Assembly: GCA_018674175.1 (NCBI GenBank)
Contig: JABHAT010000014.1
Coordinates: forward strand, 1 to 36,271
Reading direction: 5' to 3'
Length of the DNA stretch: 36,271 nt
DNA from: Gammaproteobacteria bacterium
Lineage (GTDB): Bacteria; Pseudomonadota; Gammaproteobacteria; Poriferisulfidales; GCA-002705445
Shown here: positions 30,862 through 35,503 of the stretch, in pieces
Layout of the letters: the number at the start of each line of letters is the position of its first letter
Numbering within the stretch: the first letter of the stretch is position 1
Position numbers and translations under genes: made by a program
The notes under the pieces: generated by a model
The model's database searches: none
What the model was told of the DNA's origin: nothing
The model's input: the letters and a program-made list of their open reading frames with translations, nothing else

Positions 30862-31914
30862 TCATTTGCAATCTAATCCTATTATTTCTGATATATTTCT
30901 GTACCCATTCTTTTCAATTATATTACTAAGTTCTTTATTAATCTTATTTGCAACATATGGGCCTTCATATACTAGTGATGTGTATAGTTGTAATAAGGAT
31001 GCTCCAGATTTAATTTTATCGAATGCACTCTTGCCATTATTTATGCCGCCAGCTCCTATAATTGGAATCTTATCTCCAAGTTTTTTATAAAATTTCTTAA
31101 TAGCCATATTTGAATAATCATTTAATGGTAAACCTGATAAACCTCCACTCTCTTCTTTATATTTACTCAATAGTTTGCTTTTGTTTTTAATAGTAGTATT
31201 TGTTAATATTAACCCATCAATATTTTTTTCTAAAAATATAGCAGATAAATTATTTATTTCTACGTCACTTATATCAGGTGAAATTTTAAAAAAAATTGGA
31301 ACTTTCGAGTTTTTCTCTTCTCTTATTTTTTTCACAGAATCTATTAATTTTATAATTTTACTTTCTTCGTGCTGCTCTCTTAAATTAGGAGTATTTGGTG
31401 ATGATATATTAATTGTAATATAAGCTGCTAAATCAAAAAAATTGTTAAAACAAAGTAAATAATCATCTATAATTGTGGCGTTTTTTTTATTAGGGCCAAT
31501 ATTTATGCCGCAAATACCATTTGGCTTTTTGTTCTGAATTCTTTTTCTTATACTTTTCATACCATGATTTGGAAAACCAAGTCTATTGATAATAGCTTTA
31601 TCTTCATACAATCTAAAAACTCGTGGTTTTAAATTTCCATCTTGTGGCTCTGGCGTTATTGTCCCAACTTCTGAAAATCCAAATCCTAATTTATGTATAT
31701 TATTATAAATTTCTGCATTTTTATCAAAGCCAGCAGCAAGCCCTACTGGATTTTCAAATTTCATATTAAGTATTGTTTGATTAAGATTTTTATATTTTTT
31801 GTTTGAAGAAACGCCAATTGATGCTAATGGAGACTTTATGAATTTAATTGCAATTTTGTGAGCTATTTCAGGATCAACTTTGTTTAAATAATATTTAAAT
31901 AATTTATACAACAT
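30862..31914 (-). CDS. pyrD: Dihydroorotate dehydrogenase (quinone), class 2
   Basis: Membrane-associated flavoenzyme of pyrimidine synthesis, passing electrons to ubiquinone. The N-terminal amphipathic helix region (LYKLFKYYLNKVDPEIAHKIAIKF) identifies class 2. The catalytic serine lies in NISSPNTPNLR near residue 170-180; FMN-binding signatures FENPVGLAAGFDKNAE and GAGGINNGKSAFDKIKSGASLLQLYT are present. 350 aa is normal. It follows gpsA by 35 bases and converges on glnG. Confidence 0.96.
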   Translation of the reverse strand: MLYKLFKYYLNKVDPEIAHKIAIKFIKSPLASIGVSSNKKYKNLNQTILNMKFENPVGLAAGFDKNAEIYNNIHKLGFGFSEVGTITPEPQDGNLKPRVFRLYEDKAIINRLGFPNHGMKSIRKRIQNKKPNGICGINIGPNKKNATIIDDYLLCFNNFFDLAAYITINISSPNTPNLREQHEESKIIKLIDSVKKIREEKNSKVPIFFKISPDISDVEINNLSAIFLEKNIDGLILTNTTIKNKSKLLSKYKEESGGLSGLPLNDYSNMAIKKFYKKLGDKIPIIGAGGINNGKSAFDKIKSGASLLQLYTSLVYEGPYVANKINKELSNIIEKNGYRNISEIIGLDCK

Positions 31915-31949: not shown

Positions 31950-32894
31950 TCAAACAAATTCTTTTGTTTGTTCTCTTACCAACAATTCATTGACAGCATC
32001 AGCAGGACTTATTTGACCATTTATTATATCAAATACTTTACTACATATAGGTAGATTTAATGAATGTTTTTTGATTAGTATATTGAGACCTTTGGAGGCG
32101 TATATGCCCTCTACTATATGCCCAATTTTTTTTTCCGCTTCTTTTATACTTAAACCTTTTGCAATCTCCAAACCAAAACTTCTATTTCTAGATAAATCAT
32201 CGTTCGCAGTTAAAACAAGATCTCCTAAGCCACTTAAACCGTAAATAGTTCGATCATTACAATTCAACATCTCTCCAAGACTTTTTATTTCTAATATTCC
32301 TCTTGTTATTAATGCTGCTTTTGCATTTGGTCCAAGACCTAGGCCATCTGATATACCTACTGCGACTGATAAAATATTTTTCATAGCACCTCCTAATTGG
32401 CAACCAATTATGTCATTAGATGCATAAACTCTAAAAAACTTACTATGAAACATTTCTGTAAATACTTCTAATACGTTTTTATTACTGGAGGCTATTGTAA
32501 CCGCTGTAGGTTTATTTTTTATAACCTCGGCTGCAAAAGATGGTCCAGATAGCACTGCTAAATTATTAGTTGAGGTAAAACTACTAAGTATTTGTGATGG
32601 GAATAAGCCTGTTTCTGCATCTATTCCTTTGCAAGCTAAAATAATTGGCCCTTCAAAGTTATTTTTTTTTATTATATTTCCAATTTCTTTTAGTGAGTTT
32701 ACTGGTGTTGCTATTATTACTGGAGATTTATTTTGAAAAACTTCATCTATGTTATTAATTTTCGAAATATTCTGGCTATTGTTTTCTTTGTTCCTAGAAT
32801 AAATAGTAATTTTTTTTTTATTTATTACTAAAGTGTGTGCAAGAGCTTTACCCCATGAACCAGCACCCACTATTATTGCATCAGTAGCTGACAT
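31950..32894 (-). CDS. gpsA: Glycerol-3-phosphate dehydrogenase [NAD(P)+]
   Basis: Makes sn-glycerol 3-phosphate for phospholipids from dihydroxyacetone phosphate. The dinucleotide fold is near the start (AIIVGAGSWGKALA), with SGPSFAAEV near 128-136. The catalytic lysine lies in GGAMKNILSVAVGISDGLGLGPNAKAAL-type sequence near 180-205, followed by GLSGLGDLVLTA. 314 aa is slightly shorter than in E. coli. It follows grxC by 24 bases; secB, usually between grxC and gpsA in gammaproteobacteria, is missing. Confidence 0.96.
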   Translation of the reverse strand: MSATDAIIVGAGSWGKALAHTLVINKKKITIYSRNKENNSQNISKINNIDEVFQNKSPVIIATPVNSLKEIGNIIKKNNFEGPIILACKGIDAETGLFPSQILSSFTSTNNLAVLSGPSFAAEVIKNKPTAVTIASSNKNVLEVFTEMFHSKFFRVYASNDIIGCQLGGAMKNILSVAVGISDGLGLGPNAKAALITRGILEIKSLGEMLNCNDRTIYGLSGLGDLVLTANDDLSRNRSFGLEIAKGLSIKEAEKKIGHIVEGIYASKGLNILIKKHSLNLPICSKVFDIINGQISPADAVNELLVREQTKEFV

Positions 32895-32918: not shown

Positions 32919-33167
32919 TCATTCATTATTATCCAAACCACCTTCTAAATCTAAATCAACTAAATCATCAAATCCGCCAATGTGTTTTTCATCTAGAAAA
33001 ATCTGAGGCACTGATTGTCTTCCACCTGATAACTCCAGCATTTTTTCGAACATTTTATTATCTTGATCAATCCTGTACTCAACATAATTAATATTTCTTT
33101 TTTCAAGCAACATTTTTGCTCTTACACAATAAGGACATATAGCTGTTGAATAAATTTCTGCTTTCAT
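32919..33167 (-). CDS. grxC: Glutaredoxin 3-type dithiol glutaredoxin
   Basis: An 82-aa thioredoxin-fold protein with the CPYC active site (C11, C14), the cis-proline motif SVPQIF near 53-58, and the glutathione-binding GGFDDL near 65-70. These features and the size match GrxC. It lies 2 bases after the rhodanese gene, as in E. coli yibN-grxC. Confidence 0.95.
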   Translation of the reverse strand: MKAEIYSTAICPYCVRAKMLLEKRNINYVEYRIDQDNKMFEKMLELSGGRQSVPQIFLDEKHIGGFDDLVDLDLEGGLDNNE

Positions 33168-33169
33168 AA

Positions 33170-33592
33170 TTAACTTTTTACTACTGGAAGATTATCTGAT
33201 ACCCATGCTTCAAATCCACCTTTCATTGAGTAAACCTCATTAAAATTATTTTTTAACAGTATGTTTGATATTGTTGCAGATCTAACGCCTGACTTACAAT
33301 AAACAATCGTGGGTTTACTGCTATATTTTTTTATAGAATCTAAACTAGTTTCAACAGAAGAAAAGTTTATGTGTTTTGAATCTTTTATAGTTCCTTGGTT
33401 TAATTCTGAACTTTCTCTAACATCAAGAATAAAGGCATCTTTATTAATTAAAAAAACTGCATCTTGTGGTGTAATATTTTTAAATTTTTGAGTTAAGGTT
33501 TTATACTCATTAAATATAATAAAACCAAGTATTACAAAAAATAATATAAACAATACTGGGTTGTTTGAAATAAAATTATAATATTCTTCCAT
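33170..33592 (-). CDS. Membrane-anchored rhodanese-like sulfurtransferase (YibN-type)
   Basis: A 140-aa protein with an N-terminal membrane span (about residues 12-27, NPVLFILFFVILGFII) and a single rhodanese domain (about 40-138). The catalytic cysteine is C99 in the loop C-KSGVRS, so it can carry a persulfide. DVRESSELNQGTIKDSKHINF is the usual N-terminal rhodanese motif and GGFEAWVSDNLPV the C-terminal one. It lies 15 bases after an ArsR-type regulator and directly before grxC. The physiological sulfur donor and acceptor are unknown. Confidence 0.92.
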   Translation of the reverse strand: MEEYYNFISNNPVLFILFFVILGFIIFNEYKTLTQKFKNITPQDAVFLINKDAFILDVRESSELNQGTIKDSKHINFSSVETSLDSIKKYSSKPTIVYCKSGVRSATISNILLKNNFNEVYSMKGGFEAWVSDNLPVVKS

Positions 33593-33607
33593 GATGATTA
33601 TTTACTC

Positions 33608-33937
33608 TTACTTCCTTGGGGTACAAAAAACATCTCTCATCATTTCTAATAACTTTAAAGTTCTTTCATCGCTAACTCTGTAGAATACCTTGTTAGCTTC
33701 TTTTCTTGTTGCTAAAACTCCTTTGTCTTTCAATATACCTAAGTGTTGGGATATGTTGCTTTGAGATGTACCAACAGTATCAACTATATCTTGGACGCTA
33801 AATTCAGAGTCTCCAAGTATACATAAAATTTTAAGTCTTAATGGGTGAGACATAGCTTTTATAGAGCGTGATGCTCTATCTATATCATCTTGACTTACAC
33901 TACTATGATCGATTTTTTCTCTTGCAGCTTCAGACAT
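33608..33937 (-). CDS. ArsR-family regulator with SqrR/BigR-like cysteine pair
   Basis: A 109-aa winged-helix repressor: KAMSHPLRLKILCIL near 27-41, recognition helix TSQSNISQHLGILKDKGVL near 62-80, and the wing TRKEANKVFYRV. The only cysteines are C39 (in LKILCIL) and C105 (in VFCTPRK), 66 residues apart. The persulfide sensors SqrR (C41/C107) and BigR (C42/C108) have the same spacing and local context, so persulfide sensing is inferred; the metal-site ELCVCDL motif of ArsR/SmtB is absent. A strong AGAGGGA ribosome binding site precedes the ATG. It heads arsR-rhodanese-grxC-gpsA(-pyrD). Confidence 0.9.
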   Translation of the reverse strand: MSEAAREKIDHSSVSQDDIDRASRSIKAMSHPLRLKILCILGDSEFSVQDIVDTVGTSQSNISQHLGILKDKGVLATRKEANKVFYRVSDERTLKLLEMMRDVFCTPRK

Positions 33938-34000
33938 TAAGCTTCCCTCTTTTTTTATTTATAATTATTATTTTTAACTTATATTCATGTTACCAATCAA

Positions 34001-34018
34001 TATTAGATATGTCTAATA
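34001..34018. promoter_or_regulatory. Candidate operator upstream of the ArsR-type gene
   Basis: TATTAGA (34001-34007) and TCTAATA (34012-34018) are perfect 7-bp inverted arms around TATG. The site lies 64-81 bases upstream of the regulator's start, in the expected promoter region. ArsR-family dimers bind such dyads and commonly repress their own operon; binding here is inference. Confidence 0.55.
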
Positions 34019-34046
34019 AATTAATTATTAATAATTTTAGTAACTT

Positions 34047-34201: not shown

Positions 34202-35503
34202 ATGAAATTTATTAAGAATAAAAATATCTTGTTTGGCCTTTTAGCGATATTTTCAATAAGCACTTTATTTTACTTTAAAGATAGTAATCATGCTTACGCG
34301 GCCAAGACAAATTTACCTCTAAATCAGTTACAAGCATTTTCTGAAGTTTATCTAAAAATAAAACAAAACTATGTTCAAGATGTTTCAGATAAAGAGCTCT
34401 TTGACAATGCTATCAAAGGCATGCTTGAAGGCTTAGATCCCCACTCAACCTTTTTGAATGAAAAAGACTTTAAAGATCTTAAAATTGGAACAAAAGGAGA
34501 GTTTGGCGGGCTAGGAATAGAAGTAACTATGGAAGATGGATTTGTTAAAGTTATAACTCCTATCGATGATACCCCAGCTTTTAAAGCAGGTGTAAAACCA
34601 GGTGATTTAATTATTGAAATAGATGGTGGCTCTGTAAAAGGATTATCTCTCAATCAGGCAGTTGATTTAATGAGAGGAAAAGTTGGTGAGCCAATTTTAC
34701 TTTCTATAGCAAGGAAGGGAGAAAATGGACCTTTAGAAATTAAGATAGTTAGAGCTAAAATTAAAGTCAAAAGTGTAAAATATGAAATTATTCATGAAAA
34801 TTATGGATACATAAGAATTTCTAGCTTTCAAAATAAAACCGGGAAAAATCTTTATGACGCAATATCAGACTTAAATTCAAAATCAAAGGGAAACATAAAA
34901 GGTTATGTGATCGACATGAGAAATAATCCTGGCGGAGTTTTAGGTGCTGCAGTTGACGTTAGTGATGCATTTATAAAAGGCAAAAAAAAATTAGTATTTA
35001 CAAAAGGCAGGTCAGAAGATGCAATGTATGAATTTAAATCTAATAATATTGATCTAGCAGAAGAAAAACCCATTGTTGTTTTAATAAATGGTGGTTCTGC
35101 CTCGGCGTCCGAAATTGTTGCTGGAGCTTTACAAGATCACAAAAGGGCAATTATTATGGGCACCCAATCATTTGGTAAAGGTTCTGTTCAAACAATACTT
35201 CCTATTACGTCAAAAACTGCTGTTAAAATAACGACAGCAAGATATTACACTCCTAACGGGAGATCTATTCAAGCAACAGGAATTACGCCTGATATAATTG
35301 TTAAAGACCGCGAACTAAGCTCTTCATTAGATAATAAGATGCTAAAAGAGTCTGATTTAAAAGGGCATTTAAAAAATTCAGATAAGAAGAAGAATGAAGA
35401 TGTAAAGGAAGCTCAAGATAAAAGACTTGAAAAAGATTACCAATTATCAGAAGCAATAAACCTTCTAAAAGGCCTCAACATAATGTCTTCAAATAAAAAC
35501 TAA
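34202..35503 (+). CDS. ctpA: Carboxy-terminal processing peptidase (S41 family)
   Basis: Exported serine protease that trims C-termini of periplasmic proteins and peptidoglycan enzymes. Starting at the ATG at 34202 gives 433 aa with an N-terminal signal or anchor (MKFIKNKNILFGLLAIFSIS). A PDZ domain follows (about 90-170: GLGIEVTMEDGFVKVITPID). The S41 core has DMRNNPGG, the catalytic serine in GGSASASEIVAGALQD, and the catalytic lysine in SFGKGSVQT. The C-terminus is Lys/Asp-rich. An in-frame GTG 27 bases upstream would put polar residues before the signal and is less likely. It is divergent from the ArsR operon. Confidence 0.94.
   Translation: MKFIKNKNILFGLLAIFSISTLFYFKDSNHAYAAKTNLPLNQLQAFSEVYLKIKQNYVQDVSDKELFDNAIKGMLEGLDPHSTFLNEKDFKDLKIGTKGEFGGLGIEVTMEDGFVKVITPIDDTPAFKAGVKPGDLIIEIDGGSVKGLSLNQAVDLMRGKVGEPILLSIARKGENGPLEIKIVRAKIKVKSVKYEIIHENYGYIRISSFQNKTGKNLYDAISDLNSKSKGNIKGYVIDMRNNPGGVLGAAVDVSDAFIKGKKKLVFTKGRSEDAMYEFKSNNIDLAEEKPIVVLINGGSASASEIVAGALQDHKRAIIMGTQSFGKGSVQTILPITSKTAVKITTARYYTPNGRSIQATGITPDIIVKDRELSSSLDNKMLKESDLKGHLKNSDKKKNEDVKEAQDKRLEKDYQLSEAINLLKGLNIMSSNKN

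Follow-up and report, generated by a model that had tools for sequence, protein, structure and literature searches.

Reactive-sulfur sensors and the yibN operon

Among ArsR-family regulators, the defining feature of a persulfide-sensing group (SSN cluster 4) is a pair of Cys residues in helices 2 and 5, and rhodanese neighbours of these regulators have been mentioned in general terms (PMC10509353). HlyU of Vibrio and YgaV of E. coli both harbour such a pair. The former activates a hemolysin gene; the latter, which is not encoded at the E. coli yibN locus, controls anaerobic and other genes. BigR, from Xylella, Agrobacterium and Acinetobacter, is found in local operons with a sulfurtransferase function, which comprise genes for blh (ST/PDO) and YeeE/TauE transporters (as in Bosea, L203). 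SqrR, SoxR and sHdrR also belong to the ArsR group that senses sulfane sulfur and possess a conserved Cys pair, and their targets are genes of sulfur oxidation, namely sqr, sox or shdr (PMC12423496).

The yibN, grxC, secB and gpsA genes have been described as an operon in E. coli (PMC12282094). In this bacterium they are divergent from gpmM-envC, no ArsR protein is encoded at the locus, and YibN has an Asp at the position of the catalytic Cys. We found no published account, in the open-licence literature, of an ArsR regulator at yibN-grxC-secB-gpsA.

The arsR locus and its distribution

The window analysed here, a stretch of 36,271 nucleotides, belongs to a gammaproteobacterial genome of 1.08 Mb; statements on the whole genome come from family and pattern searches of this 88%-complete assembly. 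According to the original prediction, the arsR gene codes for a protein with exactly two cysteines 66 residues apart and no ArsR metal motif, and it is followed at 15 and 2 bases by genes for a membrane rhodanese (C99) and a CPYC glutaredoxin. All these elements were confirmed. The arsR gene (33608..33937, minus strand) encodes a 109-residue protein that matches HTH_5 (42.9 bits, cut-off 22), the only HTH_5 protein found in the genome, and its two Cys residues are C39 and C105. The next gene (33170..33592, minus strand) codes for a yibN-type, membrane-anchored rhodanese (Pfam Rhodanese, 59.2 bits) whose single Cys, C99, is located in the catalytic loop CKSGVRS, C-terminal to a hydrophobic N-terminal stretch. 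Its alignment with E. coli YibN extends over the whole length of the proteins (32% identity, E 6e-29). The product of grxC (32919..33167, minus strand) is a glutaredoxin 3 (Pfam Glutaredoxin, 68 bits; NCBIfam TIGR02181, 104 bits for a cut-off of 90) with 51% identity to E. coli GrxC.

Two further genes follow on the same strand after gaps of 24 and 35 bp, respectively: gpsA (31950..32894), for an NAD(P)H-dependent glycerol-3-phosphate dehydrogenase (33% with E. coli GpsA), and pyrD (30862..31914), for a quinone-dependent dihydroorotate dehydrogenase. The former is an ancestral member of the locus, and the latter adjoins gpsA in most genus relatives and in locus L031. On the plus strand, ctp (34208..35503), for a C-terminal processing protease, is divergent from arsR, with dksA downstream; it is an ancestral neighbour that marks the locus. 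Terminator-like sites were not found between the operon genes, a result that the AT-rich DNA makes weak.

We collected orthologues of the regulator from a class sample of 275 gammaproteobacterial genomes at a threshold of at least 110 bits, with second copies stepping down to near 100 bits. They were present in 133 of these genomes, about half, nearly always at a yibN-type locus. At smaller scales, the regulator was found in 11 of the 12 genomes of the family and in 18 of the 20 of the order. Streamlined marine relatives with a single detected ArsR-family gene have kept the one at the yibN locus.

The gene order headed by arsR recurs in dozens of families. In 67 orthologous loci of the class-wide sample it reads <ctp <envC (<gpmI) | arsR> rhodanese> (grx>) (trx>) secB> gpsA>, with genes for rhodanese in 62 loci, secB in 61, gpsA and ctp in 60 each, envC in 58, grx in 40, gpmI in 34 and thioredoxin in 21; no rhodanese was detected nearby in the 5 remaining loci. 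At this fixed place, the neighbours of the probable sensor are genes with housekeeping roles in reducing thiols, exporting proteins and making lipids. The E. coli operon has the gene order of the window's locus type, except for the lack of ArsR. Given its orthologous genes and shared order, the window locus is a reduced version of that operon, in which secB, envC and gpmI are missing. As the same neighbourhood occurs with or without ArsR, the rhodanese-Grx-gpsA cluster is old and general, and the regulator alone calls for a special explanation. We detected no secB gene in the window's assembly or in the two other genus members of the class sample (G003 and G007). The lack of SecB in three genomes of one genus is unusual, as the protein is present in 250 of the 275 genomes.

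Cysteine pair and placement of the regulator

C39 and C105 are invariant in all 69 class-wide orthologues and all 11 paralogues aligned, and neither set has conserved Cys residues in other alignment columns. The spacing between the two is 66 residues in 63 of the 69 orthologues. This set was obtained with a whole-protein search and is thus free of the pattern bias of another set, in which 98 of 98 proteins agree. The invariant cysteines, their spacing and the recurrent gene order together indicate that the arrangement in the window is not due to chance. In the predicted structure of the window ArsR (mean pLDDT 84), C39 is part of helix 2 (residues 32-41), and C105 is at the end of helix 5, just past residues 91-104. 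The protein thus has the helix 2/helix 5 Cys pair with conserved spacing that delineates SSN cluster 4.

In a phylogenetic tree, orthologues and paralogues cluster together as one clade (99/94), HlyU and YgaV join it (97/94), BigR and SqrR are outside this grouping, and SmtB, NmtR and CzrA are across another branch (88/84), although the details of this tree are unsure because of the short alignment and long reference branches. The HlyU references were those of V. cholerae (4k2e) and V. vulnificus (3jth). This position, next to HlyU and YgaV with BigR and SqrR close by, is not among unrelated ArsR groups without conserved cysteines and thus favours the original prediction. HlyU and YgaV are its nearest characterised relatives in the tree, with 32-38% identity in structural alignment. 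The top PDB matches by sequence are BigR (4e-18) and HlyU (6e-15), and the nearest solved structures to the predicted fold, which is common to all ArsR proteins, are HlyU and SqrR.

BigR has both cysteines at the same positions, but orthology with it was ruled out, with an NCBIfam NF040642 score of 79.4 bits for an equivalog cut-off of 155. In addition, neither blh nor YeeE-type transporter genes are present beside the window arsR, whose neighbours are the yibN-type rhodanese, grxC, gpsA and pyrD genes. Sequence and cysteine anatomy assign the window ArsR to the reactive-sulfur group already known, in which it represents a distinct clade apart from SqrR. Of the kinship with SqrR and BigR that had been proposed, membership of this group therefore holds, unlike orthology with BigR or inclusion among SqrR proteins. 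The clade of probable persulfide sensors is large and apparently uncharacterised, and its putative target operon appears to be unusual.

A paralogous ArsR protein with a Cys pair is encoded immediately after an NtrC-like gene in several loci (L192, L193, L195-L197, L199, L200), which represents a second conserved setting, and its cysteines are also invariant.

Candidate operator, regulatory model and alternatives

Upstream of arsR, the family shares a candidate operator that does not feature in the original prediction (34001..34018), the perfect 7-4-7 inverted repeat TATTAGACATATCTAATA, with half-sites TATTAGA and TCTAATA around CATA on the arsR strand. It is included in a conserved promoter/operator block of 40 bp (33983..34022, minus strand), whose mean column conservation over 11 species is 94%, compared with 60-64% for the flanks. 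The best-placed arsR promoter, on the minus strand, consists of a -35 box, TAGACA (34010..34015), inside the left half of the palindrome, and a TG-extended -10 box, TAACAT (33987..33992), 17 bp away. The palindrome overlaps the arsR -35 box in 11 of the 12 family genomes, i.e., every one in which arsR was found, with an A/T variation at its centre. Its core, TTAGACATNTCTAAT, is upstream of arsR in all 11 gene-bearing genomes, and the reverse control gave 0 matches. Only two extra core sites were identified across the 12 genomes. We dropped the one in G003 as an operator, as it falls within a coding frame, and rejected the other, near znuB and a porin gene (G000 C12:25574), as other family genomes have no site there. 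The latter is a near-exact copy of the palindrome (L210:1501-1518, G000 C12:25574-25591) that abuts a Zur-box-like sequence, AATGTTATATTATAACATT, between znuB and the gene of a His-rich porin-like protein.

No single operator was found class-wide, with other families showing different enriched palindromes. ATTAT-N3-ATAAT dyads were detected in 9 of 70 cases for 0.15 expected, and TTAGA/TAGAC dyads in 5-6 of 70 for 0 expected; both vary in spacing and position. The former occurs at the arsR -10 box in other families. A TTAGAC-N3-GTCTAA dyad is present between arsR and gpmI, toward the divergent gpmI side, in six loci (L125, L129, L130, L134, L139, L144).

This distribution of sites is what one might expect of a local autorepressor, although family membership does not by itself tell repression from activation, because HlyU is an activator in Vibrio. 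The window ArsR most likely has HlyU/SqrR/BigR-like chemistry in a genetically local autorepressor. In our favoured reading, to which we give a probability of roughly 0.7, it senses sulfane sulfur through its two thiols and represses its own operon, arsR-yibN-grxC, and we infer both DNA binding and the nature of the inducer. The reduced dimer would bind the palindrome, thereby covering the -35 box, and block transcription. An increase in organic or inorganic per- or polysulfides, the presumed sensed species, would generate a polysulfide bridge between Cys39 and Cys105 and lower the affinity of the protein for DNA. Derepression would then yield the membrane rhodanese and glutaredoxin 3; the former, if active as a sulfurtransferase, would pass sulfane sulfur on, and thiols would be reduced or de-persulfidated. 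Putative read-through might extend this control to gpsA and pyrD. The original prediction went further, proposing that phospholipid and pyrimidine synthesis come under sulfur control. This part has no support other than adjacency: gpsA is present at the locus whether or not ArsR is encoded there, its proximity therefore says little about a sulfur control of phospholipid synthesis, and control of pyrD is a lineage-specific possibility only.

The sulfide:quinone oxidoreductase (SQR) and an ETHE1-type persulfide dioxygenase (PDO), encoded elsewhere in the genome, would also handle sulfide and persulfide. The SQR gene (L109:1501-2628; E 1.5e-31 with human SQR, with sulfide:quinone oxidoreductases as the best PDB matches) is downstream of a DsrE-like gene (L109:843-1232), and the PDO gene (L121:1468-2190) codes for a protein matching ETHE1 with E 1.6e-56. 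A gene for a cytochrome-c-like protein with two CxxCH haem motifs is located just upstream of the latter (L121:550-1161). Several further rhodanese-domain proteins are encoded in this genome. With these genes, it is plausible that the cell both makes and uses persulfides. Class-wide, ETHE1-type PDOs were found in 64 of 134 ArsR-positive and 31 of 141 ArsR-negative genomes (p 8e-6, a statistic that ignores phylogeny). In contrast with SqrR systems, no matching palindrome was found upstream of the SQR gene of the window's genome, nor of its PDO gene, and control of sulfide oxidation by ArsR is therefore hypothetical.

A regulator serving sulfur transfer should accompany a working rhodanese. We thus compared the rhodaneses of ArsR-positive loci with those of ArsR-negative loci, located via secB. 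A C-x4-R loop is present in 60 of 66 ArsR-positive and 11 of 57 ArsR-negative loci (p 1e-16), or 47 of 50 and 8 of 41 at the family level; the ArsR-positive rhodaneses were fetched using the window protein as the query, with a possible slight bias toward canonical loops. Independent pairs taken from a SecB+GpsA tree were supported in 8 cases, with on average 5.7 in the same and 0.1 in the opposite direction (median p 0.03). The catalytic Cys alone gave a weaker contrast (64 of 66 versus 43 of 57), not significant with independent pairs. Across Gammaproteobacteria, ArsR is thus usually kept where the active-site loop of the rhodanese is intact. Two loci of family f134, L124 and L151, are exceptions, with both ArsR cysteines, a degenerate rhodanese loop and no Grx found. 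Of the coherent sulfur unit initially proposed, the supported part is that ArsR presence tracks an intact sulfurtransferase loop; the cluster itself did not arise as a sulfur unit but is the old yibN-grxC-secB-gpsA locus, found in E. coli without ArsR.

The reactive-sulfur sensor might mainly serve envelope biogenesis, with YibN, SecB and GpsA adjusted to sulfide stress. The conserved operon does couple ArsR to yibN, secB and gpsA, beside envC and ctp, and in E. coli, YibN, which contacts SecYEG and YidC, was copurified with the former and linked to the latter (PMC8082313, PMC12282094). We nevertheless regard this proposal as unlikely: ArsR is kept with a canonical rhodanese loop, and loci that retain YibN in a form with a degenerate loop usually have no ArsR, which points to sulfurtransferase activity, and the window's lineage has kept ArsR yet lacks secB.

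Somewhat less probable still is a general thiol-redox sensor, in which a disulfide formed upon peroxide, disulfide or electrophile stress would release a glutaredoxin/thioredoxin-type response. Glutaredoxin 3 downstream and the Zn-ribbon thioredoxin in 21 of the 67 class loci would fit a disulfide-stress regulon. However, the peroxide sensor RexT uses two neighbouring helix-3 cysteines and belongs to a different SSN cluster, and HlyU, with its helix 2/helix 5 pair, is reactive toward persulfides but not toward H2O2 or GSSG (PMC10509353). The presence of ArsR also follows the sulfurtransferase loop. An ArsR/SmtB-type metal sensor, as might be suggested by the fold and by the second 17-bp operator core next to the Zur-box-like sequence between znuB and the His-rich porin gene, is very improbable, since the window ArsR has neither a helix-3 CxC nor the D/H...H/E helix-5 ligands of SmtB/CzrA-type proteins, metal sensors fall outside its clade, the znuB-side site is missing from other family genomes and no metal transporter genes are present at the locus.

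With a persulfide sensor as the preferred reading, we tentatively envisage, although the odds are somewhat against it, that the yibN-grxC-secB-gpsA operon of Gammaproteobacteria was widely or ancestrally controlled by a dedicated reactive-sulfur sensor. The regulator and the YibN loop would have been gained or lost together, which would make enteric YibN a relic whose sulfurtransferase role is gone and whose membrane-insertion role remains. The link between the sensor and the intact loop offers a direct handle on the function of YibN and would account for this function possibly not being apparent with the E. coli protein.
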